Assembly: GCA_030602145.1 (NCBI GenBank)
Contig: JAUWAH010000044.1
Coordinates: forward strand, 1 to 10,381
Direction: 5' to 3'
Source of the DNA: Desulfobulbus sp.
Lineage (GTDB): Bacteria; Desulfobacterota; Desulfobulbia; Desulfobulbales; Desulfobulbaceae
DNA: 10,381 nt
Shown here: positions 1 through 10,381 of the stretch, piece by piece
How positions within the stretch are numbered: the stretch's first letter is position 1
Layout of the letters: the number at the start of each line of letters is the position of its first letter
The notes under the pieces: generated by a model
Told to the model about the DNA's origin: nothing
Database searches by the model: none
The model's input: the letters and a program-made list of their open reading frames with translations, nothing else
Position numbers and translations under genes: made by a program

Positions 1-66
1 GGCCTGTCCACCCTCAAGGGGCGGGAAAAACGGGCCGCCGGCCGGACGGGAGCCGTGGTGCAATGA
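1..66 (+). CDS. C-terminal end of an upstream gene (partial, unidentified)
   Basis: Frame 1 is open from the window edge to a TGA at 64-66 and encodes 21 residues ending in TGAVVQ. The stop shares the ATGA overlap with the ATG of the next gene at 63, an arrangement typical of translationally coupled operon neighbours. That overlap is the main reason to believe this frame. The tail is basic and low in information, so no family can be named. Frame 2 is also open here, as is common in GC-rich DNA, so the call is tentative. Confidence 0.45.
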   Translation, partial: GLSTLKGREKRAAGRTGAVVQ

Positions 67-3000
67 AACGACAGAAAGAACGCCTCTACAGGGTGATCGT
101 CGCCGGCGCCACGCCGGAGGGGATCGCCGCCACCAACAAGCTGGGCGAACTGGGCATTCCGGTCACCCTGGTCGATGGCGATCCCGATCTGGACCGCAAA
201 CTGGCCGGCGAGGAGTATCGGCTGCCTTCGGGGCTGGCCTTCAATTTCGCCCACCGGCCCGGCCTGATCAGGATCATGCGCAACAGCGCCATCCGTACCC
301 TGCTGCCGGCGCGGATCTCCTCGATCAAGCACACCTCGCAAGGGTTCAGCGTCCGCATCGATCAGGAGCAGACCTTCATCGATCCGGATCGATGCGCCCT
401 GTGCGGCAAATGCGTGGCGGTGTGTCCGGTGGACCACCCCGACAACGGCCGCGCCCTGCGCTATCACGCCCGTACCAGTTTGCCCGGCCGGCCCTTCATC
501 GATAAACGCAAACAGCCGCTCTGTCAGGAAAACTGCCCACTGGGCGTCAATGCCCAGGGCTACATCGCCCTCGCCGCCCAGGGGCGCTACGAGGAGGCCC
601 TGGCCCTGATCCGTCGCGACAACGTCCTGCCCGGCATCTGCGGCCGAATCTGTACCCATCCCTGTGAGGAGGCCTGCCGGCGGGGCGGGGTCGACGATCC
701 GGTGGCCATTCGGTCCATCAAACGGTTTCTAGCCGATTATGAGGGCGCCGACGCTGCCAGGCAGGAAACGGCCGGGCAGGCACTCGCCGACCGGGTCGAG
801 CCGACGCGATCCGAGAAGATCGCCATCATCGGTTCCGGCCCGGCGGGCATCGCCGCCGCCGCCGATCTGGCCCGCAAGGGATATGGGGTCACCGTGTTCG
901 AAAAGGAGGCCGAGGTCGGCGGCTTGCTTCGTTACGGCATCGGCGCCCATCGCCTGCCCCGGCCGATTCTCGACCGCGAGATTCGGCTGATCGAACGGAT
1001 GGGGGTCCGGTTCGTGACCAACCAGACGATCGATCTGGCCTCCGGACTCGATGCGCTGGCCAGCGAATACAACGGTGTGCTCCTGGCCACCGGGACTTGG
1101 CATGATCGCAAGATGGGCATCGAGGGTGAGAATCTGGAGGGTGTCGAGGGGTGTCTGGCCTTCCTGGCCCGGCGCCAGTGGGATAACCTGACCAGTCTGA
1201 GCGGCCGGGTGGCGGTGATCGGCGATGGCAACTCCGCCTTTGACCTGGCTCGAACCCTGGCCCGCATGGGGGCCGAGGTAAGCATCGTTTCATGGTTCGG
1301 CGCCGACCACATCCCCGCCGACCCGGACGAGGTGCGAGAGGCGGCCGAGGAGGGCGTCACCCTCATCGACGCCACCCAGGTTGTGGCCTTCCGGGGCGAG
1401 AACGGCCGCTTCACCCATCTGGAATGTATGCGCACCCGACTCGGCCAACCGGATGGTCGAGGCATCGCCTGGCCGGTGGTTGCCGAAGGGCAGCAGTCGT
1501 TTACCCTGGCCTTTGACCGTGCCTTTGTCGCCATCGGCCAGGTGGGCGGCTTCAGCCGCGACAGCTTCGGCGGCCGAATCGCGGTCAGCGAGCGCGGTTT
1601 CATCGAGACCGACCAGGACCTGCACACCACCATGGCAGGAGTCTATGCCGCCGGCGACACCGTATCCGGTCCGTCCTCGGTGGTTAAAGCCATGGCCACC
1701 GGTCGCAAGGCAGCCCGTTCCATCCACTTCGAGTGCACCTCAAGCCGTGAGGAGGGAGCAATCTCCCGGCCGGAGGACAAGGATTTCCGGACTATCCCGG
1801 CTGACTTGCCTGCCTGTGCGCGCACCGCGATGCCCGAGCTTGCCGCCGCCGAACGCAAACTCGACTTCCGGGAGGTCGCCCTGGGCTTCGACGGCGATCA
1901 GGTGCGATTGGAGGCCAGCCGTTGCCTCCAGTGCGGTGTCTGTTCCGAATGTTTGCAGTGCGTGGCCGCCTGCGGGGCGCTGAAGGCCATCGACCACTTC
2001 CAGGAGAAGGAGGAAATCGTCGAGCAGTGCGGTGCGGTGATCGTCGCCGATCCCGCCATTGCCCCCAACATCAAGGGCGACGACATCATCCGCGCCTATG
2101 GGCCCAAGGCGGCCCGTTCGGATGTCAACGACATGATCGTGCGCGGCTTTGACGCCGCTGCCCGGGCCCTGCTGCTGCTGGGCGGGACCTCAAGCAAGAT
2201 CAAGGGGTTTGGCCGTACTGTGTCCATGCCCGATCCCGGTTTGTCGCCGGAGATCCGCATCGGTGTCTTTGTCTGCCGCTGCAACGACAGCCTTGGCTGG
2301 CTGGAGGGCATGAGCACCCATCTCGACCGGTTGGCCGACGACAACCCGGCCATCGTCCATACCGAGATGCTGACCTCGGCCTGCGTCAAGGAGGGGTCCT
2401 CGGCCATTGTCCGGGCGGTGCGGGAGAAGGCCATCACCCGGCTCGTGTTGGCCTCCTGCGTCTGTTGCCCGCTCAATTTCGTCTGCAGCGCCTGCACCGA
2501 TCAGCGCAGCCGGCTGAAGAACAACCTCTTCCACGGCACCGGCATCAGCCGCTCCATGGTCGAGACCTGCAACCTGCGCGGCGAAACCCTGAGGCTGGTG
2601 GAGGCTAATCCGGCCCTGGCCCTGGAACGGTTCAAGGGGTTACTCCGCCGGTCGATCAAGCGGACCCTGACCCTGAAGCCGCTGTTGGCGGTGGACCGCA
2701 ATTACAACTTCGCCGCCGCGGTCATCGGCAATTCCCAGGCCACCATGACCAGCGCCCTGACCCTGGCCGATACCGGCCACGAGGTGTTCCGCTTCGGCAC
2801 CGCCGAGCAGCCCCTCAAGGACATGGTGGAACATGCCAACATCCACAATTTTCCGGACTGGCACGTCAAGGGCATCAAGGGAACCATCGGCGATTTCCAG
2901 ATCCTGGTCGAGGCCGACGGTCACCAGCAGGTGGTGCGGGCCGGTACGGTCATCCTGGGCGAAAAGGCCCGGCGCCGCATTGCCTATACCCATCAGGAAG

Positions 3001-3458
3001 GGTTGGCCAGCGCCACGGTGGAACCGGTGGTCCAGGAATATGGCACCACCAATATTCCCTTTGCCTATCCCTGCGCCACTTCGGTCCCCGGTCTCTTCCT
3101 GGCCGAACCGCCGGATATCAATGTCTCCAAGCTGAAGAAGGGGACAGCGGCGGCGGTGATGGTGGCGGCGGCCATGCCCCGCGGTCCCCGGCAGTCCAAG
3201 GGGCTGACCGCGGCCATTGACGAAAAGCTCTGCCGAGGCTGCGGCCGCTGCACCACGGCCTGTCTCTATCATGCGGTCACGTTGCAGCCCAATGAAGTTG
3301 GTGGCTGGCATGCCCATGTTGACGAGGCCCTGTGCAAGGGGTGCGGCAACTGCATCTCGGTCTGCCCGACCGGTGCCGCCGACAGTCCCTACCGTAACAG
3401 GGCCTTCCTTGAGCAGGCCCTCGAGGAACTGCTGGCACGGGAGAGTGTCCATGAATAA
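63..3458 (+). CDS. HdrA-like / NfnB-GltD-like / HdrA-like fusion, FAD- and NAD(P)-dependent iron-sulfur oxidoreductase
   Basis: The protein has 1131 residues, against roughly 650 for a plain HdrA and 470 for NfnB. Residues 1-125 align by eye with the middle of HdrA: a degenerate Rossmann start (GATPEG) and a ferredoxin motif C111-C114-C117-C121, without the DCSxC motif. Residues about 155-560 are NfnB/GltD-like: a cysteine-rich N-terminal domain (PGICGRICTHPCEEAC), FAD motif GSGPAG at 257-262, NAD(P) motif GDGNSA at 387-392 and AAGD at 529-532. Six cysteines follow at 621-637. Residues about 730-1050 again resemble HdrA (VCRC at 737-740), with a cysteine-rich patch (C799, C801, C802, C808, C811) and a degenerate dinucleotide fold (GNSQAT). 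Two complete [4Fe-4S] motifs end the protein (C1057-C1067 and C1091-C1101). No signal peptide or membrane span is seen, so it is probably cytoplasmic. A GGGAG Shine-Dalgarno at 48-52 and the ATGA overlap support the start. Inferred role: the NAD(P)H entry/exit module of the Hdr complex encoded downstream. Confidence 0.92.
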   Translation: MKRQKERLYRVIVAGATPEGIAATNKLGELGIPVTLVDGDPDLDRKLAGEEYRLPSGLAFNFAHRPGLIRIMRNSAIRTLLPARISSIKHTSQGFSVRIDQEQTFIDPDRCALCGKCVAVCPVDHPDNGRALRYHARTSLPGRPFIDKRKQPLCQENCPLGVNAQGYIALAAQGRYEEALALIRRDNVLPGICGRICTHPCEEACRRGGVDDPVAIRSIKRFLADYEGADAARQETAGQALADRVEPTRSEKIAIIGSGPAGIAAAADLARKGYGVTVFEKEAEVGGLLRYGIGAHRLPRPILDREIRLIERMGVRFVTNQTIDLASGLDALASEYNGVLLATGTWHDRKMGIEGENLEGVEGCLAFLARRQWDNLTSLSGRVAVIGDGNSAFDLARTLARMGAEVSIVSWFGADHIPADPDEVREAAEEGVTLIDATQVVAFRGENGRFTHLECMRTRLGQPDGRGIAWPVVAEGQQSFTLAFDRAFVAIGQVGGFSRDSFGGRIAVSERGFIETDQDLHTTMAGVYAAGDTVSGPSSVVKAMATGRKAARSIHFECTSSREEGAISRPEDKDFRTIPADLPACARTAMPELAAAERKLDFREVALGFDGDQVRLEASRCLQCGVCSECLQCVAACGALKAIDHFQEKEEIVEQCGAVIVADPAIAPNIKGDDIIRAYGPKAARSDVNDMIVRGFDAAARALLLLGGTSSKIKGFGRTVSMPDPGLSPEIRIGVFVCRCNDSLGWLEGMSTHLDRLADDNPAIVHTEMLTSACVKEGSSAIVRAVREKAITRLVLASCVCCPLNFVCSACTDQRSRLKNNLFHGTGISRSMVETCNLRGETLRLVEANPALALERFKGLLRRSIKRTLTLKPLLAVDRNYNFAAAVIGNSQATMTSALTLADTGHEVFRFGTAEQPLKDMVEHANIHNFPDWHVKGIKGTIGDFQILVEADGHQQVVRAGTVILGEKARRRIAYTHQEGLASATVEPVVQEYGTTNIPFAYPCATSVPGLFLAEPPDINVSKLKKGTAAAVMVAAAMPRGPRQSKGLTAAIDEKLCRGCGRCTTACLYHAVTLQPNEVGGWHAHVDEALCKGCGNCISVCPTGAADSPYRNRAFLEQALEELLARESVHE
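3439..3445 (+). promoter_or_regulatory. Ribosome binding site fixing the start of the MvhD-HdrC-HdrB gene
   Basis: GGGAGAG lies 5-7 nt before the ATG at 3451, inside the last codons of the preceding gene. The reading frame stays open further upstream, with an ATG at 3217, but those residues lie inside the ferredoxin-coding end of the previous gene and resemble no MvhD. This site therefore selects 3451, giving an 8-bp gene overlap. Confidence 0.75.
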
Positions 3459-5058
3459 TCATACCAACGGCCATCCATTGAATATACTCCTCTTTCTCTG
3501 CAACTGGGGGGCGCATGCCGCCTTTCTCACCCTCCAGGATGAACGACGTCCCATTCCAGACGAAATCCGCATGGTCCGCGTCCCCTGCGCCGGCCGCATC
3601 GATCGCGCCATGCTCCTCAAAGCCTTTGCCCAGGGCGCCGACGGTGTTGCTCTGGTCGGGTGCGAACCGGGCACCTGCCGGTACGGCTCCGGCACCGCCA
3701 CCTCGCTGCGCAATACCGACGATGTGCAGCGCATCCTCGATATCATGGGACTGGGGCGGGAGCGGCTGCGTTTTGCCGCATTTTTGCCGGAGCAGTCTGA
3801 GGACATGCTGCGTTTCCTCCAGAGTTTTGCCACCGAAATCAACGGGCTCGGCCCGGCTGGGATTGAGGCGGCACCGATCATGCCGACCGCCGGTTTCGAT
3901 GAGCGCCAGCAGGAGTTGCGGCAGTTGGTGGCCACCCACGACATTTATGCCTGCCAGGACTGCGGTAAATGCTCCTCGGCCTGTCCGCTGGCGTTGATCG
4001 GCAAATCCTTTTCACCGCGGGCCATTGCCTCGGCGGTGATCACCGGTGGCATCCATACCCCCGGTGTCCAGGAAAATGCCTGGTCCTGCCTGACCTGCGG
4101 CCTTTGTTACGAGCGTTGTCCGTCGGCGGTCAATTTTCCAGCCTTCATCAAGGATCTTCGCCACCTCTACCGCCGCACCGCCTTGCCGGGGCAAGAGGTC
4201 CATGGCGGCTTTTTCCACTCCCTGATGCGATCCATGTCTTCGACGGCGATTACTCCCAAGCGTTGGACCGGCCTGCCCGAGGAGATCCGCATCGACCCGG
4301 AGAGCACCACCCTGTTCTTCGGTGGCTGTGCCCCCTACTACGACATTTTTTTCAGCAAACACAACACGATCCAAACCAACCGGATCCTCATCGACAGCCT
4401 GCGGCTCCTTAATTTCTTCGATGTTGCCCCCCGGTTGCTGACCGACGAACGCTGCTGCGGCCACGACCTGCTCTGGTCCGGCGACAAGGAGAATTTTCAG
4501 CGGCTGGCCAGCCTCAATGTCGACAAGCTTAACCAATTGGGCATCGAGACCGTGATCACCACCTGTCCGGAATGCTACATGACCCTGCACACCACCTATA
4601 CCGAGCAGGGCTTGGAGCCGCGGTTCAAGGTCGTCCATCTCTACGATTTTCTTGAGGAGCAGCTCGATAAGGGCGCGGTGGGCTTCGAACCGTTCGACCA
4701 GGCCATCACCTTCCAGGATTCCTGCCGCCTCGGCCGGTTGGAAGGCAGGATCGATCTGCCGCGCAAATTGCTCAAACGACTCAAACCCAAGCAGTTCGTC
4801 GAGATGAAGGAATCGGGCAAGGCGGGGATCTGCTGCGGCAACTGCGCCTGGACCGGCTGCGACAGCTACAGCAAGGCCATGCAGGTCAAGCGGCTGGAGC
4901 AGGCGCATGCCACCGGCTCCGACCTGCTGGTGACGGCCTGTCCGAAATGCCAGTTGCATCTCACCTGCGCCATGGAGGACCCGTTCCGGCGCGAACAGTT
5001 GCAGATGGAGTTGATGGACCTGACCAGCCTCATCGCCCGGACCATCCGATGGGAATGA
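3451..5058 (+). CDS. MvhD-HdrC-HdrB fusion protein (heterodisulfide reductase-type subunit)
   Basis: The protein has 535 residues in three parts. Residues about 10-135 are an MvhD/FlpD-type domain with C17 (CNWG), C46 (CAGRI), C71 and C76. The usual second cysteine of CNWC is Gly20. Residues about 160-235 are HdrC-like with two full [4Fe-4S] motifs (C168-C171-C174-C178 and C213-C216-C219-C223). Residues about 285-535 are HdrB-like with two complete CCG motifs: C293, C335-C336, C372/C375 and C425, C461-C462, C497/C500. In characterised HdrB these bind two noncubane [4Fe-4S] clusters that reduce a disulfide, so the catalytic centre looks intact. The physiological substrate is unknown. The gene overlaps its upstream neighbour by 8 bp, implying translational coupling. 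In this family MvhD relays electrons from a donor enzyme to HdrA, and HdrC relays them between HdrA and HdrB. No membrane helix or signal peptide is seen. Confidence is high for the domains and low for the substrate. Confidence 0.94.
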   Translation: MNNHTNGHPLNILLFLCNWGAHAAFLTLQDERRPIPDEIRMVRVPCAGRIDRAMLLKAFAQGADGVALVGCEPGTCRYGSGTATSLRNTDDVQRILDIMGLGRERLRFAAFLPEQSEDMLRFLQSFATEINGLGPAGIEAAPIMPTAGFDERQQELRQLVATHDIYACQDCGKCSSACPLALIGKSFSPRAIASAVITGGIHTPGVQENAWSCLTCGLCYERCPSAVNFPAFIKDLRHLYRRTALPGQEVHGGFFHSLMRSMSSTAITPKRWTGLPEEIRIDPESTTLFFGGCAPYYDIFFSKHNTIQTNRILIDSLRLLNFFDVAPRLLTDERCCGHDLLWSGDKENFQRLASLNVDKLNQLGIETVITTCPECYMTLHTTYTEQGLEPRFKVVHLYDFLEEQLDKGAVGFEPFDQAITFQDSCRLGRLEGRIDLPRKLLKRLKPKQFVEMKESGKAGICCGNCAWTGCDSYSKAMQVKRLEQAHATGSDLLVTACPKCQLHLTCAMEDPFRREQLQMELMDLTSLIARTIRWE

Positions 5059-5204
5059 GAGCAGGTAGATAGCCTTTAGGTGGATAGTCTGTTAGCTCAA
5101 CAGCGCGCTTCACGTGAAAAACCTGCACGCTACAGACTAACAGACGAACAGACTCATTAGACGAATAGACTAACCAGCGAACCAGCTAGTACCGGAGAAC
5201 AGAT
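5059..5204 (+). repeat. Repeat-rich spacer upstream of hdrA
   Basis: The 146-bp spacer is visibly less GC-rich than the genes around it. From 5134 to 5190 it is a head-to-tail run of imperfect 8-nt units: AGACTAAC, AGACGAAC, AGACTCATT (9 nt), AGACGAAT, AGACTAAC, CAGCGAAC, CAGCTAGT. On the left, AGGTAGATAG (5063-5072) and AGGTGGATAG (5078-5087) form a direct pair. GTCTGTTAG (5087-5095) is the exact reverse complement of CTAACAGAC (5137-5145). The core between them holds the 10-bp palindrome TTCACGTGAA (5109-5118). No clear -35/-10 pair and no T-tract terminator is seen. It may be an mRNA structure that tunes hdrA expression or simply a slippage-prone spacer. Confidence 0.7.
5194..5197 (+). promoter_or_regulatory. 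Ribosome binding site of hdrA
   Basis: GGAG, within CGGAGA, lies 7 nt before the ATG at 5205 and directly follows the repeat run. It is a good match and supports this start, after which the HdrA N-terminal motif GVYVCHC begins about 17 residues in. Confidence 0.7.
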
Positions 5205-7625
5205 ATGTCAAAAACCCCTCCAGCCAAACCCGTCGAACAAGATGCACGCATCGGCGTCTATGTCTGCCATTGCGGCCTCAACATCGCCCAGTCGGTGGAT
5301 TGCACCAAGATCGCCCAGGATATAGCCGAAGTCGACGGCGTGATTATCTCGAAGGATATTGTCTACGCCTGCTCCGAACCGGGGCAACAGGCGATCAAAC
5401 AGGACATCATCGACAACGGCCTCGATCGGTTGGTGATCGCCTCCTGTTCGCCCCGCCTGCACGAGCCCACCTTCAAGAAGATGGCTGAAGCAGCCGGCGT
5501 CAACCCCTACATGGTCGACATGGCCAACCTGCGCGAGCAGTGCAGTTGGGTCCACATGAATGACCGCGACAACGCCACCGCCAAGGCCGAAACCCTCGTC
5601 AATATGGCGATTGCGCGTGTCCGCCAGCTCGAACCCCTGTACGAGGACACCCTGCCGCTCACCCAGAAGACCCTGGTGATCGGCGGCGGCATCGCCGGCA
5701 TCCAGGCAGCGCTCGATCTGGCCGACAGCGGCTATGATGTCACCCTGGTGGAGAAGAATGCCTCCATCGGCGGCATCATGGCCCAGATCGATAAAACTTT
5801 TCCGACCATGGACTGTTCGATTTGAATCTTAGGTCCTAAGATGACGGATGCCGGTCGGCATCCACGGATAAAGTTGTTGACGTTGAGTGAAGTGGTCGAT
5901 GTGAAGGGATATGTCGGCAACTTCAAAGTGAAAATCATCAAGAAGGCCCGCTACGTCGATGAGACCAGCTGCACGGCCTGCGGTGACTGTGCTAAGGTTT
6001 GCCCGGTGGTGCGGCCCGACGAGTTCAACATGGGCCTGGGGTCGCGCAAGGCGATCTATTCGCCGTTTCCCCAGGCGGTGCCCTCCTCCTATCTGATCAA
6101 CGCCAAGGAGTGTTTGGGCCACAATCCGGCGGTCTGCTCGAAGTGCGTCGAGGTCTGTGCCAAGGGGTGCATCAACTTCCATATGTCCGACGAGGAGATC
6201 GTCGAGGAGGTGGGCACGATCATCGTTGCCACCGGTCTGCAGCCGTATGACCCGACCGAGATGGATGAGTACGGCTATACCCGGTTCGACAACGTGCTCA
6301 CCAGCCTGGAGTTCGAGCGACTGGTCAATGCCAGTGGTCCGACCAAGGGTTCGCTGATCCGGCCGTCGGATCGCAACCACCCGAAATCGGTGGGGTTCAT
6401 TCAGTGCGTGGGCTCGCGCTCGGCGACCAAGGGCGGCCACTACTGCTCCAATATCTGCTGCATGAACACCATCAAGTCGAGCTTCATTATCAAAGAGCAT
6501 TACCCTGATGTCGAAGTCAAGGTGTTCTACATCGATATCCGCGCCTTCGGCAAGGGATTCGAGGACCTCTACACCCGCAGCCGTCGCATGGGCACCCAGT
6601 ACATCCGCGGCCTGCCCGGCTCGGTGGAGGAAACCGAAAACGGCAGTCTGAGGGTGGCGGTGGAGAACGCCGCCACCGGCACCCTGGAGTTCCACGAGTT
6701 GGATATGCTGGTCCTGGCCCAGGGCATGAAGCCCGCCCCCTCGACCCAGCGGTTGCAGGAGATCATGGGCTTGCAGCTCACCTCGGATGGCTTCTACCTG
6801 GAGGCCCATCCCAAGCTCCAGCCGGTGGATGCCGCCACCCGGGGTATCTTCTTCGCCGGCTGCGCCGAGGGCCCCAAGGACATCAAGGAGGCGGTCACCC
6901 AGGCCTCGGCCGCGGCCATGCGCGCCATCCGGTTGATGCACAAGGGCGAGATCAACACTGAGCCGATCACCTCGACGATCATCGTCGAAAAGTGCAAGGC
7001 CTGCGGCAAATGCGCCGAGGTCTGCCCGTACAATGCGATCAGCGTCGACGTCAAGGCCAAGAAACCGGCGGTGGTCAACTCCGCTGCCTGCGCAGGCTGC
7101 GGCACCTGTTCGGCCGAGTGCCGATTTGACGCCATCTCCATGAACCATTTCACCGATGCCCAGCTCATGGGGCAGGTGGACACCATGCTGGCGGTCGAGC
7201 CGGAGTCGAAGATCCTCGCCTTTGCGTGCAACTGGTGCTCGTACGCCGGCGCCGACTATGCCGGTGTCTCCCGGCTCCAGTATCCGGCCAATGTCCACCT
7301 CATCCGGGTGATGTGTTCCGGCCGGGTGGACGAAAAGTTCATCTGGGAGGGATTCCGTCAGGGCGCGCCGGTGATCCTGGTGAGCGGCTGCCACATTGGC
7401 GACTGCCACTACATCGACGCCAACCATTGGACAGAAAAGCGGGTGGAACGCATCCACAAGAAGATGGAAAAGATCGGCCTGCGGCCGGAGCGGTTGCAGT
7501 TGGAGTGGATCAGCGCCGCCGAGGGCATCCGGTTTGCCGAGACCATGCGACGGATGGAGAGGCTCCGGCAAAGCGTCACCGCCGAGGAGATCGCCGAAAC
7601 CCAGAACATCCTCACCAAGCTCTAA
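5205..7625 (+). CDS. hdrA: Selenocysteine-containing HdrA fused to MvhD (UGA 5823-5825 read as Sec)
   Basis: Read through the in-frame TGA, this is one 806-residue protein with Sec207. Domains in order: N-terminal HdrA domain with VCHC (C21, C23); FAD Rossmann motif GGGIAG at 160-165; DCSI-Sec-ILGPKM, the conserved HdrA DCSxC site with Sec in place of the second cysteine; ferredoxin motif C256-C259-C262-C266; a cysteine-rich insert (C303, C311, C314, C318, C322); two [4Fe-4S] motifs (C597-C607 and C629-C639); and a C-terminal MvhD domain with the full cysteine set (C675, C678, C704, C729, C734). HdrA is the flavin-bifurcating core of Hdr complexes, and Sec forms are known in methanogens and some sulfate reducers. 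Both halves are in the same frame and the protein motif runs unbroken across the TGA, which argues against a pseudogene. Ordinary gene calling would split it into 5205-5825 and a false gene at 5841. It follows the HdrBC fusion after 146 bp and is probably co-expressed with it. Sec decoding needs SelA/B/C/D elsewhere in the genome. Confidence 0.92.
5826..5842 (+). other. UGA-proximal palindrome with GGUC centre
   Basis: Directly after the UGA, ATCTTAGG (5826-5833) and CCTAAGAT (5835-5842) are perfect reverse complements around a single T, so the RNA could form about 7 bp with a GUC loop. It encodes ILGPK plus the first bases of the next Met codon. It starts 0 nt from the UGA and would lie inside the ribosome footprint during decoding, too close for a standard bacterial SECIS. 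It may be an auxiliary element that helps pausing, or a coincidence of the conserved peptide. Confidence 0.5.
5846..5863 (+). promoter_or_regulatory. Bacterial SECIS element of hdrA
   Basis: GGATGCC (5846-5852) and GGCATCC (5857-5863) form a perfect 7-bp stem capped by the tetraloop GGTC (5853-5856). Bacterial SECIS hairpins sit inside the coding region just after the UGA and present a G-U to SelB in the apical loop; E. coli fdhF has AGGUCU in its loop. The loop here begins 27 nt after the UGA, compatible with known bacterial SECIS spacing. The hairpin codes for the HdrA segment DAGRHP, so it is embedded in conserved protein sequence. Confidence 0.8.
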
Positions 7626-7630
7626 CCAGT

Positions 7631-7656
7631 GTGGCCGGACCACCATGGCCGGCCAC
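7631..7656 (+). other. Hairpin just after the hdrA stop
   Basis: GTGGCCGG (7631-7638) pairs perfectly with CCGGCCAC (7649-7656) across a 10-nt loop, starting 5 nt after the hdrA stop codon. No T-run follows, so it is not a classic intrinsic terminator. It could stabilise the mRNA 3' end or act with the stronger hairpin downstream. Confidence 0.35.
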
Positions 7657-7741
7657 GACGAACTCTCGAAGAACTGCGCACCGGCACGCCACCGTCGCCG
7701 GAGCCAGCATGGTTCGAAGAACGATAGCCTCCCCCTGCCAG

Positions 7742-7776
7742 GATGCGCAGGGCCGCGACCTCCGGCCCTGCGCATC
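7742..7776 (+). terminator. Strong 13-bp hairpin, probable end of the hdr operon
   Basis: GATGCGCAGGGCC (7742-7754) and GGCCCTGCGCATC (7764-7776) are exact reverse complements around a 9-nt loop, giving a very stable GC-rich stem about 115 bp after hdrA. There is no U-tract directly after it; the first T-run (GATTTT) is some 25 nt on. Termination is therefore likely but not certain. The same stem forms on either strand. Confidence 0.45.
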
Positions 7777-7979
7777 GATCCTCACCGGCCCGATCTGTGA
7801 CCGATTTTCGCTAACCTCCGTTGCCTGTTCAACGGTGATCGATTGTTCAACCCTTCGATGGTTTTAGTGCGAAGAGAACGGCCTTCTTTAAAAGGACTGT
7901 TTAAAGGACTGTTTTCACCAAGCAGAATAGCGCATACCCCGCCACGAGATGCACAGCTTCGTTCGCCCCCCTGTGGCGG

Positions 7980-8087: not shown

Positions 8088-8423
8088 ATGGTCCGTTTCG
8101 CTTTGGTGGTCGCAGGGTGGCTGAGTCTGGTGCTGGGCATCGTCGGCCTCCTCGTGCCCCTGCTGCCCACCACGCCCTTTCTCCTGCTTTCGGCCGCCTG
8201 TTTCTCCAGGGGCAGCGAGCGATGTGAGCGCTGGCTGCTCAACCATCCCCGATTGGGTCCGGCAATTCATAACTGGCGCACCCACCGGACCCTCTCCACC
8301 CGCGCCAAGCAGTTGGCTATCCTGACCATGCTCCTGGGCTCGGCCCTGGCCCTCTACCAGGTACCCCATCCCTGGTGCTGGCTGCCCACCCTCATCTGTG
8401 CTCCCATTGGCTGCTGGCTGTAG
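8088..8423 (+). CDS. DUF454 / YbaN-like small inner-membrane protein
   Basis: The 111-residue protein matches the DUF454 (YbaN) family pattern: GWLSLVLGIVGLLVPLLPTT at the N-terminus with its PLLPTTPFLLL block, then SRGSERCERWLLNHPRLGP, then NWRTHRTLSTRAKQLAI. Hydrophobic stretches at about 4-25, 28-40, 75-90 and 94-111 suggest a compact integral membrane protein with a cytoplasmic loop in the middle. Its function is not established. No good Shine-Dalgarno precedes the ATG at 8088, so translation may be weak, but the family motif begins about 11 residues in, which fits this start. It stands alone on the plus strand between the hdr locus and convergent transporter genes. Confidence 0.85.
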   Translation: MVRFALVVAGWLSLVLGIVGLLVPLLPTTPFLLLSAACFSRGSERCERWLLNHPRLGPAIHNWRTHRTLSTRAKQLAILTMLLGSALALYQVPHPWCWLPTLICAPIGCWL

Positions 8424-8461
8424 CGGCTGCCCGCCGAACCGCAGCGCGCCTGATCGATCGG

Positions 8462-8486
8462 CCGCCCGTTGGCTGGTGGTGTTTTG
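8462..8486 (+). terminator. Weak terminator-like hairpin after the DUF454 gene
   Basis: CCGCC (8462-8466) can pair with GGTGG (8475-8479), including one G-U pair, around an 8-nt loop, and TGTTTTG follows. The stem is short. It lies in the 91-bp gap between two convergent genes, where a terminator is expected. Confidence 0.25.
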
Positions 8487-8514
8487 ATCAGTACCTTTCG
8501 CCTCTGCATTACGT

Positions 8515-9303
8515 TTAGAGCAGACCGGTGAAGAGGGCTGCGGCAATGCCGAGCAGCAGTGTACCGGTGATGTTCTGGATGACCCCCATGGTCACCTTGT
8601 GCAGGTACCGTTTGCCGACGAGGACACCGGCAAAGGCCGCCAGGCAACCGGCCGCGATCAACAACCATTGGCCGCGATCGAATCCGCCTCCCGATCCGGC
8701 CAAGAAGAAGACGGAGCCGTAGGTCACAATCCGGGCCAGGTCGACCAGAAAACCGATCAGGGCATTGGTGCCCACAAAGGCCTGGGGCGAGATACCCACC
8801 TTGGTGAGAAAAGCAGCGCGCAGAGCACCCTGATGACCTGAAAAACCGCCGAAGAATCCCGACAACAGCCCACCGACGAGAAGATATTTGCGATCAAAGC
8901 GCAGGGCGCGCAGTCCGGGCACCAGTTCGAACAGGGCAAAGACGAACATCAAGGTACCCAAGGTCAGCTTGACCGGGGTGACGACGGCAAGACGCGAACC
9001 GATGGTGTAGCTGAAAACCTCGCCGAGGTGGGCGATGGAACCAAGGGCCGCAGCCCCGGCAAAGGCGGCAACGATGGCGGGCAGGCCGAAGCGAAGCACC
9101 AGATCCCGGTCGGCATTCCTGCCGACCACCGCCACCTTGAGGATATTGTTGGCGCCATGCACCAGGGCGGTAGCCCCCACCGCCACCTCCACCGGGAAAA
9201 AGAGGGCAAAGACCGGCAGCAGCAAGGTGCCGAGTCCGAAGCCCGAGTAAAGGGTCAGGCTCGATGCGAGAAAGGCGCAAAGGGCTATGATCAGATAGTC
9301 CAT
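8515..9303 (-). CDS. TauE/SafE-family membrane permease (putative sulfite/organosulfonate exporter)
   Basis: The 262-residue, very hydrophobic protein has about eight membrane spans and the two-repeat layout of TauE/SafE (formerly DUF81). The first half carries SGFGLGTLLLPVFALFFP and ATALVHGANNILK. The second repeats the theme with GLLSGFFGGFSGHQGALRAA and GTNALIGFLVDLARIVTYG. Family members are linked to export of sulfite, sulfonates or sulfoacetate, but many have no known substrate, and nothing here fixes one. On the minus strand an AGGAA (plus-strand 9310-9314) sits about 6 nt before the ATG, supporting the start at 9303. It lies 126 bp downstream of the MFS gene in the same direction and may be co-transcribed with it. 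It is convergent with the DUF454 gene. Confidence 0.9.
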   Translation of the reverse strand: MDYLIIALCAFLASSLTLYSGFGLGTLLLPVFALFFPVEVAVGATALVHGANNILKVAVVGRNADRDLVLRFGLPAIVAAFAGAAALGSIAHLGEVFSYTIGSRLAVVTPVKLTLGTLMFVFALFELVPGLRALRFDRKYLLVGGLLSGFFGGFSGHQGALRAAFLTKVGISPQAFVGTNALIGFLVDLARIVTYGSVFFLAGSGGGFDRGQWLLIAAGCLAAFAGVLVGKRYLHKVTMGVIQNITGTLLLGIAAALFTGLL

Positions 9304-9429
9304 ACCAGGTTCCTGTTGTGTCGATTCGGGTTGTTACGTTGTCTCTGCGGTTGTCGTCCGCCCCATTCCAAAGGGGACCGCGCCTTGTTCGACCGGGGAT
9401 TGGCTCCACCGGATCGGACAATTCCGGGC

Positions 9430-10381
9430 TTACTCCTTGCTGTGCTTGAACAGTGCATACAGCATCAGATCGTAGACGATTTTCAATCCGCCGGCCACGA
9501 AGAACGGTGCGGAAAAGAACAGCGGGCTGGCCATGAGCAGGCCGGCCAACAGCGGCGAGGCCGCCGCACCCACGGAACGGGCCACGGTGGTGATGCCCGA
9601 GGCTGCCGAGCGTTCGTCCGGCGCCACCACCGCCATGGTGTAGGACTGACGGACCGGCACGTCCATCTGCGAGATGCTGGCCCGGAGCAGCAGCACGGTG
9701 ATGGCCAGCCAGACGTTTGGCATCAACGGCACCAGGCACAGGAGGATGTTGGCGGGAATATGGGTATAGACCATGGTCCGCACCAGACCGATCCGGTCGG
9801 CGAGCCGGGTGGCCAGCAGGGCCGACATGCCGGCCAGCAGATTGGCTCCGAAGAACAGGGTGCCGAGCATTCCCTCGTCGACCCCGTAACGGACATGCAG
9901 CCACCAGGCGATCATGCTCTGGACCACGAACCCGCCGGCAAAGGCATCGAGGGCAAAGAGGGAACTGAGCTTGAAGACCACCTTTTGGGAACGGTGCAGG
10001 CCCATGGTTCTTGCAACCCCTTGGTCGGGCCCTGCCGATGTCGGCACCGCTTCCGCCTTCCTGGACAAAAAGACGAAGAGCAGGACCAGCGCCAATCCGC
10101 AGACCGCGTAGCCGGCCATGATGAACCGGTAGGCGTCCAGTCCGCTGAAGCCGATTGCCTGCATCCATTGCGCCAGCCAGCCTCCCGCCAGGGCGCCTCC
10201 GGCGGTGGCGAACGATCCGGCCAGGTTATACCAGCCGAATACCCTGGTGCGCCGGCTGTCCGGGACCAACTGGGAGAGAGCTGCCTGCTCGATGGATAAA
10301 AAAGGTCCGATCTCGCCGCCGCTTGGACTGACGATGCCGATGATCGCCGCGATGGTGATCCACACCGGATCGTCGGTGAGG
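9430..10381 (-). CDS. MFS transporter, N-terminus beyond the right edge (partial)
   Basis: The frame is open to the window end; a GTG at 10363-10365 is an internal Val codon rather than a likely start, since hydrophobic sequence continues from the edge. About 316 residues are visible, against roughly 400 for a typical MFS protein, so approximately the first two or three helices are missing. Visible marks: EQAALSQLVPDSRRTRVFGW followed by a helix rich in Gly and Ala (the TM4/5 region), a charged central loop near SRKAEAVPTSAG, then the C-terminal half with ATRLADRIGLVRTM, a motif-A-like loop, and SQMDVPVRQSYTMAVVAPDE. It ends FKHSKE. The substrate cannot be told from sequence; members of this kind are often annotated as drug or metabolite efflux. 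The gene precedes the TauE-family gene in the same direction. Confidence 0.88.
   Translation of the reverse strand, partial: LTDDPVWITIAAIIGIVSPSGGEIGPFLSIEQAALSQLVPDSRRTRVFGWYNLAGSFATAGGALAGGWLAQWMQAIGFSGLDAYRFIMAGYAVCGLALVLLFVFLSRKAEAVPTSAGPDQGVARTMGLHRSQKVVFKLSSLFALDAFAGGFVVQSMIAWWLHVRYGVDEGMLGTLFFGANLLAGMSALLATRLADRIGLVRTMVYTHIPANILLCLVPLMPNVWLAITVLLLRASISQMDVPVRQSYTMAVVAPDERSAASGITTVARSVGAAASPLLAGLLMASPLFFSAPFFVAGGLKIVYDLMLYALFKHSKE

Follow-up and report, generated by a model that had tools for sequence, protein, structure and literature searches.

The window (the whole stretch of DNA analysed, 10,381 nucleotides from a draft assembly of Desulfobulbus sp.) carries three consecutive Hdr-type genes on its plus strand. 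The first of them (63..3458, plus strand) encodes an HdrL-like protein of 1131 aa with a GltD-like NAD(P)/FAD part and an HdrA-like N-terminal part; the name HdrL is given on the basis of this domain make-up and of the available part of PMC2702500. The second (3454..5058, plus strand) encodes an MvhD-HdrD-like fusion of 534 aa with FlpD, Fer4 and two CCG stretches. The third is the hdrA-mvhD gene (5205..7625, plus strand), which is the subject of this analysis. Among the six window genes scanned with Pfam, no hydrogenase catalytic subunit was found. Downstream, the region 8088-10380 holds genes for a DUF454 protein and, on the minus strand, for a TauE/SafE-like protein (sulfite exporter family) and an MFS protein. 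Several repeats were also seen between the genes. The leader 5085-5182, in the gap between mvhD-hdrD and hdrA, contains AGAC-rich direct repeats of 16 nt at 5134, 5142, 5159 and 5167, together with an inverted copy, GTCTGTTAG/CTAACAGAC, at 5087-5095 and 5137-5145. After the hdrA gene there is a perfect 14-nt inverted repeat with a 7-nt loop (7742-7776), and two 12-nt tandem units, 92% alike, lie at 7888-7911.

The frame 5205-7625 contains exactly one internal stop, the TGA at 5823-5825 (plus strand), and reading of the frame revealed no indels, as had been stated in a preliminary description of this DNA. The readthrough product is 806 aa long, with selenocysteine (Sec, U) predicted at residue 207 within MDCSI-U-ILGPKM. 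Pfam scanning placed an FAD domain at residues 155-251 and the MvhD/FlpD domain (FlpD) at residues 670-785, the remainder carrying FAD and Fe-S domains. Against NCBIfam NF040770 (HdrA2) the protein scored 1195.3 bits (cut-off 1100) over residues 15-795. It also aligned with HdrA of PDB 5odc, chain A (E 5e-232), and here residue 207 corresponds, within an ungapped block and as counted off the printed alignment, to Cys197; the earlier placement of the TGA at a Cys position of the HdrA DCSxC motif was thereby borne out. On the opposite strand there is a 648-codon open frame antisense to hdrA (5829-7775, minus), which is probably a by-product of codon bias.

Relatives were searched with the HdrA-MvhD protein, and the best 80 of at least 582 confirmed loci, a set biased to close kin by this choice, were compared at the site. 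Each of the 80 reads TGA there, within the motif MDC[SA]I-TGA-ILGP. Among these relatives, L016 comes from Desulfobulbus elongatus DSM 2908 and is 91% identical over its best segment. In a search of the phylum, matches with E no higher than 1e-100 were obtained in 234 of 297 genomes, paralogues included. Among the matches listed, 37 rows (the window included) span the site at 64% identity or more; a single TGA is present in 36 of these and absent from the remaining one. The codon itself was read in the window and 29 other such loci, some of which repeat species among the best 80, and was TGA in every case; for six of the 36 rows the TGA was counted with its position within the gene left unread. 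From the same search 20 further regions were picked by hand. Fifteen of them match the site motif and all have Cys there; the other five (L142-L146) lie outside the site pattern and were excluded from the counts. Mapped onto a 125-row tree, the Sec label required 2 changes, versus 14.5 in shuffles. One of the 15 Cys regions, L133, has TGT at the site and falls inside the Sec group; the genome it comes from carries a Sec copy as well (L113). L133 sits on a long branch and its placement was flagged as unsure; it is likely to be a Sec-to-Cys change with a decayed hairpin.

The distribution of the Sec-type gene is patchy even within the genus. Five other genomes of the genus were present in the phylum search. 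Two of them (G052 and G281) have the gene with TGA, in two (G117 and G171) the only HdrA seen is of the Cys type and about 45% identical (L148 and L147, respectively), and for the fifth (G014) nothing above that level was found among the matches listed. In the organism's own genome, a draft of 72% completeness, the search for a second HdrA gave only fragmentary matches, none longer than 171 residues.

Two hairpins can be drawn downstream of the TGA. The putative bacterial-type SECIS hairpin (5846..5863, plus strand) has a 7-bp stem and a GGUC loop located 28-31 nt past the TGA, and so provides the downstream hairpin with a G in the apical loop that is typical of a bacterial selenoprotein gene. 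Pairing was counted in 104 distinct TGA sequences, obtained from 110 rows (the window, the best 80 of at least 582 loci, and the 29 others). All seven pairs are formed in 94 of the 104 and six of seven in the other 10, and the loop reads GGTC in 103. At the pair 5851-5858 we found T-A in 52 sequences, C-G in 45 and T-G in 7, and never C-A (Fisher p 4e-22, a value that ignores kinship among the rows). In the protein, one side of this pair changes Val to Ala and the other is silent within an Arg codon, so that the protein sequence alone leaves the pairing unexplained. The nine best full-length rows without a stop among the matches listed (L133-L141), all with Cys, form only 3, 4 and 5 of the pairs in five, three and one rows, respectively; L147-L152 entered the tree and were excluded from this count. 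For 5823-5870 the folding energy was −18.1 kcal/mol (z −2.63), a value reached by 3 of 200 shuffled sequences, and a 60-nt version gave z −2.02 (reached by 6 of 200). In the relatives L016, L024 and L095 the corresponding z values are −2.17, −1.69 and −0.71. All four values are only mildly low, and energy is therefore by itself weak evidence for a SECIS, whereas the conservation is strong evidence; the hairpin 5846-5863 is present in the minimum free energy structures of all four. The other hairpin lies directly after the TGA (5826..5842, plus strand; perfect 7-bp stem, loop GTC). Its role is doubtful: as a general SECIS it was rejected, being fully paired in only 12 of the 104 distinct TGA sequences.

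The preliminary description had taken a hairpin after the TGA as support for recoding and had considered recoding likelier than a nonsense mutation. A lone stop in an otherwise intact frame is, indeed, what a nonsense mutation or a sequencing error would be expected to leave in a broken gene. Such an accident is hardly credible for a TGA shared by every one of the best 80 relatives and accompanied by a conserved and covarying hairpin, with both the frame and its cysteines intact beyond the stop. Both earlier statements hold up against these data, the hairpin 5846-5863 being conserved jointly with the TGA across species, and the alignment of Cys- with Sec-type HdrA that had been proposed as a check gave the same picture, since the Cys homologues lack the hairpin. 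It might be argued instead that two proteins are made by design, a 206-aa N-terminal HdrA and an HdrA-C/MvhD protein starting from the ATG at 5841, which is 15 nt past the TGA and at least 95% conserved in the TGA rows. That same ATG is, however, a Met codon in the stop-free Cys homologues. A split there would cut through the FAD domain, and it would give no reason why a silent position in an Arg codon should pair with one that switches between Val and Ala, so we regard this arrangement as very improbable.

Recoding as Sec requires a dedicated machinery, and the preliminary description had proposed a search of the genome for selA, selB, selC and selD. The assembly (2.8 Mb in 481 contigs) contains selA (608 bits, cut-off 268), selB (358 bits, cut-off 242) and selD (364 bits, cut-off 125), as well as a match to tRNA-Sec (57.1, cut-off 47) with the anticodon loop CUUCAAC, for which tRNA-Sec is the best Rfam family in its stretch. 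Among 14 control genomes, scores above cut-off were obtained for tRNA-Sec in 5, selB in 2, selA in 1 and selD in 2; because 5 of 14 controls also pass, the tRNA-Sec score alone is inconclusive. The four genes are on four contigs other than that of hdrA, and in a draft a binning error is conceivable. The selD gene itself (L012, G000:C353, 996-2030 minus) has one in-frame TGA, in AAGUAAKLGPG, which we take to be the catalytic Sec/Cys site of SelD, and it is a second candidate selenoprotein of the same genome. Two further marks of a bacterial selenoprotein, a UGA aligned with Cys of homologues and a sel gene set, are thus found here. The DNA alone would be compatible with a UGA read as some other amino acid. 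We give this reading almost no weight, in view of the Sec machinery, the SECIS-like hairpin and the Cys in homologues; a general reassignment of UGA is likewise unsupported, the neighbouring mvhD-hdrD gene ending in TGA (5056-5058). Taken together, these comparisons indicate that TGA 5823-5825 is almost certainly a Sec codon within one long HdrA-MvhD gene.

The gene neighbourhood was also compared. Within the best 80 of at least 582 loci, the HdrL-like protein has matches in 68 and the MvhD-HdrD protein in 76. Twenty-nine of the 80 are too short upstream for the neighbourhood to be judged; the 51 whose upstream DNA extends over 5.1 kb or more all have both matches, the most distant of them (such as L088, L091, L093 and L095) matching only the HdrD part of the fusion and showing an HdrL-like match of 32-40% identity. 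Sec was also sought elsewhere in the operon, in the aligned tblastn stretches of these 80 loci: in-frame stops occur in six loci, and none resembles a Sec site. In L084 and L085 the stop is a TGA that separates the MvhD part from the HdrD part, suggesting split genes; in the other loci the stops are close to the ends of the genes.

Selenocysteine in HdrA is already known, and our main claim is right and ordinary in kind; the comparisons that follow refer to the available parts of the papers cited, unless the main text is named. Deltaproteobacterial Sec-HdrA was published as early as 2006 (PMC1794560), in a paper that counted 16 bacterial HdrA selenoproteins, and is treated also in PMC13188914. 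The Sec-HdrA proteins of deltaproteobacteria and methanogens described there are like the present one in having UGA-encoded Sec in the HdrA of anaerobes. PMC1794560 describes hydrogenase operons of the form hdrA-frhD-frhG-frhA(-glpC), whereas here a hydrogenase catalytic subunit is missing from the genes scanned and hdrA is fused to mvhD. In Desulfococcus multivorans, the HdrA dmul_C02770/80 (presumably hdrA1, judging by the locus tags) has a UGA plus a SECIS as here, and HdrA1 was detected in cells; the likeness is one of description, a Sec peptide being unreported in that source (PMC5109826). The gene set of the window resembles hdrA1-mvhD1-oxidoreductase of the same organism (PMC5109826). 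Desulfobacterium autotrophicum has Sec-containing Hdr proteins, HdrA1 and HdrA2, followed by MvhD, as here, and its HdrL/HdrA/HdrD/MvhD proteins resemble the window set, the HdrL type having an NADH-binding part (PMC2702500). HdrL1 and HdrL3 of that organism are selenoproteins, in contrast to the unbroken frame of the HdrL-like gene here (PMC2702500). The HdrA-MvhD fusion is shared with HdrA2 of Methanosarcina acetivorans (PMC5296606), in agreement with the NF040770 cut-off passed by our protein. HdrA2 has HdrB2C2 and F420H2 or ferredoxin as partners, and the main text of that paper does not contain the word "selenocysteine". As to an HdrB2/HdrC2-type partner in the window, the genes alone offer the MvhD-HdrD fusion with its two CCG stretches, which adjoins hdrA upstream. 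In methanogens, HdrA has been lost to gene callers or split because of Sec (PMC12054007). A literature search that reached few subscription papers found none joining Desulfobulbus with selenoprotein and selenocysteine.

What might Sec do at residue 207? The preliminary description had called the residue catalytic. This view found no support, the aligned Cys197 being described in the available part of PMC9012536 as reaching across the HdrA dimer to ligate a [4Fe-4S] cluster. Because of this description, which is a single one and concerns a Cys enzyme, we favour, with some reserve, the view that Sec207 ligates a [4Fe-4S] cluster through its selenolate and is not a catalytic nucleophile. The N-terminal cysteines 21, 23, 56, 81 and 113 are present in every covering row of 81 (the window and the best 80 of at least 582), and Cys33 in 79 of 80 covering rows. 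More tentatively, the selenolate could act in trans across the Hdr dimer, perhaps even completing a cluster of the HdrL-like partner, an idea that we think somewhat unlikely. The HdrA-like part of the HdrL-like protein keeps the VCxC, AC and ASC cysteines and lacks the DCSxC motif, which is also absent from all 63 HdrL matches of relatives examined; with similar N-terminal cysteines and no DCSxC, a mixed HdrA/HdrL complex is conceivable. In the tandem HdrAs of PMC9012536, again as far as the available part goes, one partner is without its own N-terminal domain; HdrA-MvhD, unlike that partner, has one, which argues against a mixed complex. For Sec as an Fe-S ligand, our search, mostly outside the subscription literature, found no statement on HdrA in titles or the openings of abstracts, and the accessible part of PMC10779653 does not mention this protein.

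We propose the following model for this organism, which by its nearest relatives is a Desulfobulbaceae-like sulfate reducer. SelB and tRNA-Sec would insert Sec at the UGA 5823-5825, guided by the intragenic hairpin 5846-5863. Within an Hdr complex whose other parts, the HdrL-like NAD(P)H module and the MvhD-HdrD module, are encoded by the neighbouring genes, HdrA-MvhD would be the subunit that carries flavin and distributes electrons. Electrons may pass from the NAD(P)H module through MvhD to the FAD of HdrA, and from there both to ferredoxin and, via the HdrD-like protein, to a disulfide-type acceptor. Sec207 would ligate a [4Fe-4S] cluster that is bound for the most part by the partner HdrA through its N-terminal domain. 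The recoding signal, the machinery, the conservation and the gene neighbourhood in this explanation are supported by sequence comparison.

The predicted gene model is thus corrected to one protein of 806 aa in place of two of 206 and 594 aa, and in many relatives the predicted Sec codon is conserved jointly with its SECIS and its gene neighbourhood. Sec would occupy a site that, in the available description of the solved complex, is an iron-sulfur ligand and not a substrate-handling residue. If the in-trans reading of Sec207 were true, it would amount to an electron-transfer cluster with a natural selenium ligand inside a bifurcating complex. The Sec207 site may therefore be a good place to ask what use selenium has in cluster chemistry and electron bifurcation.
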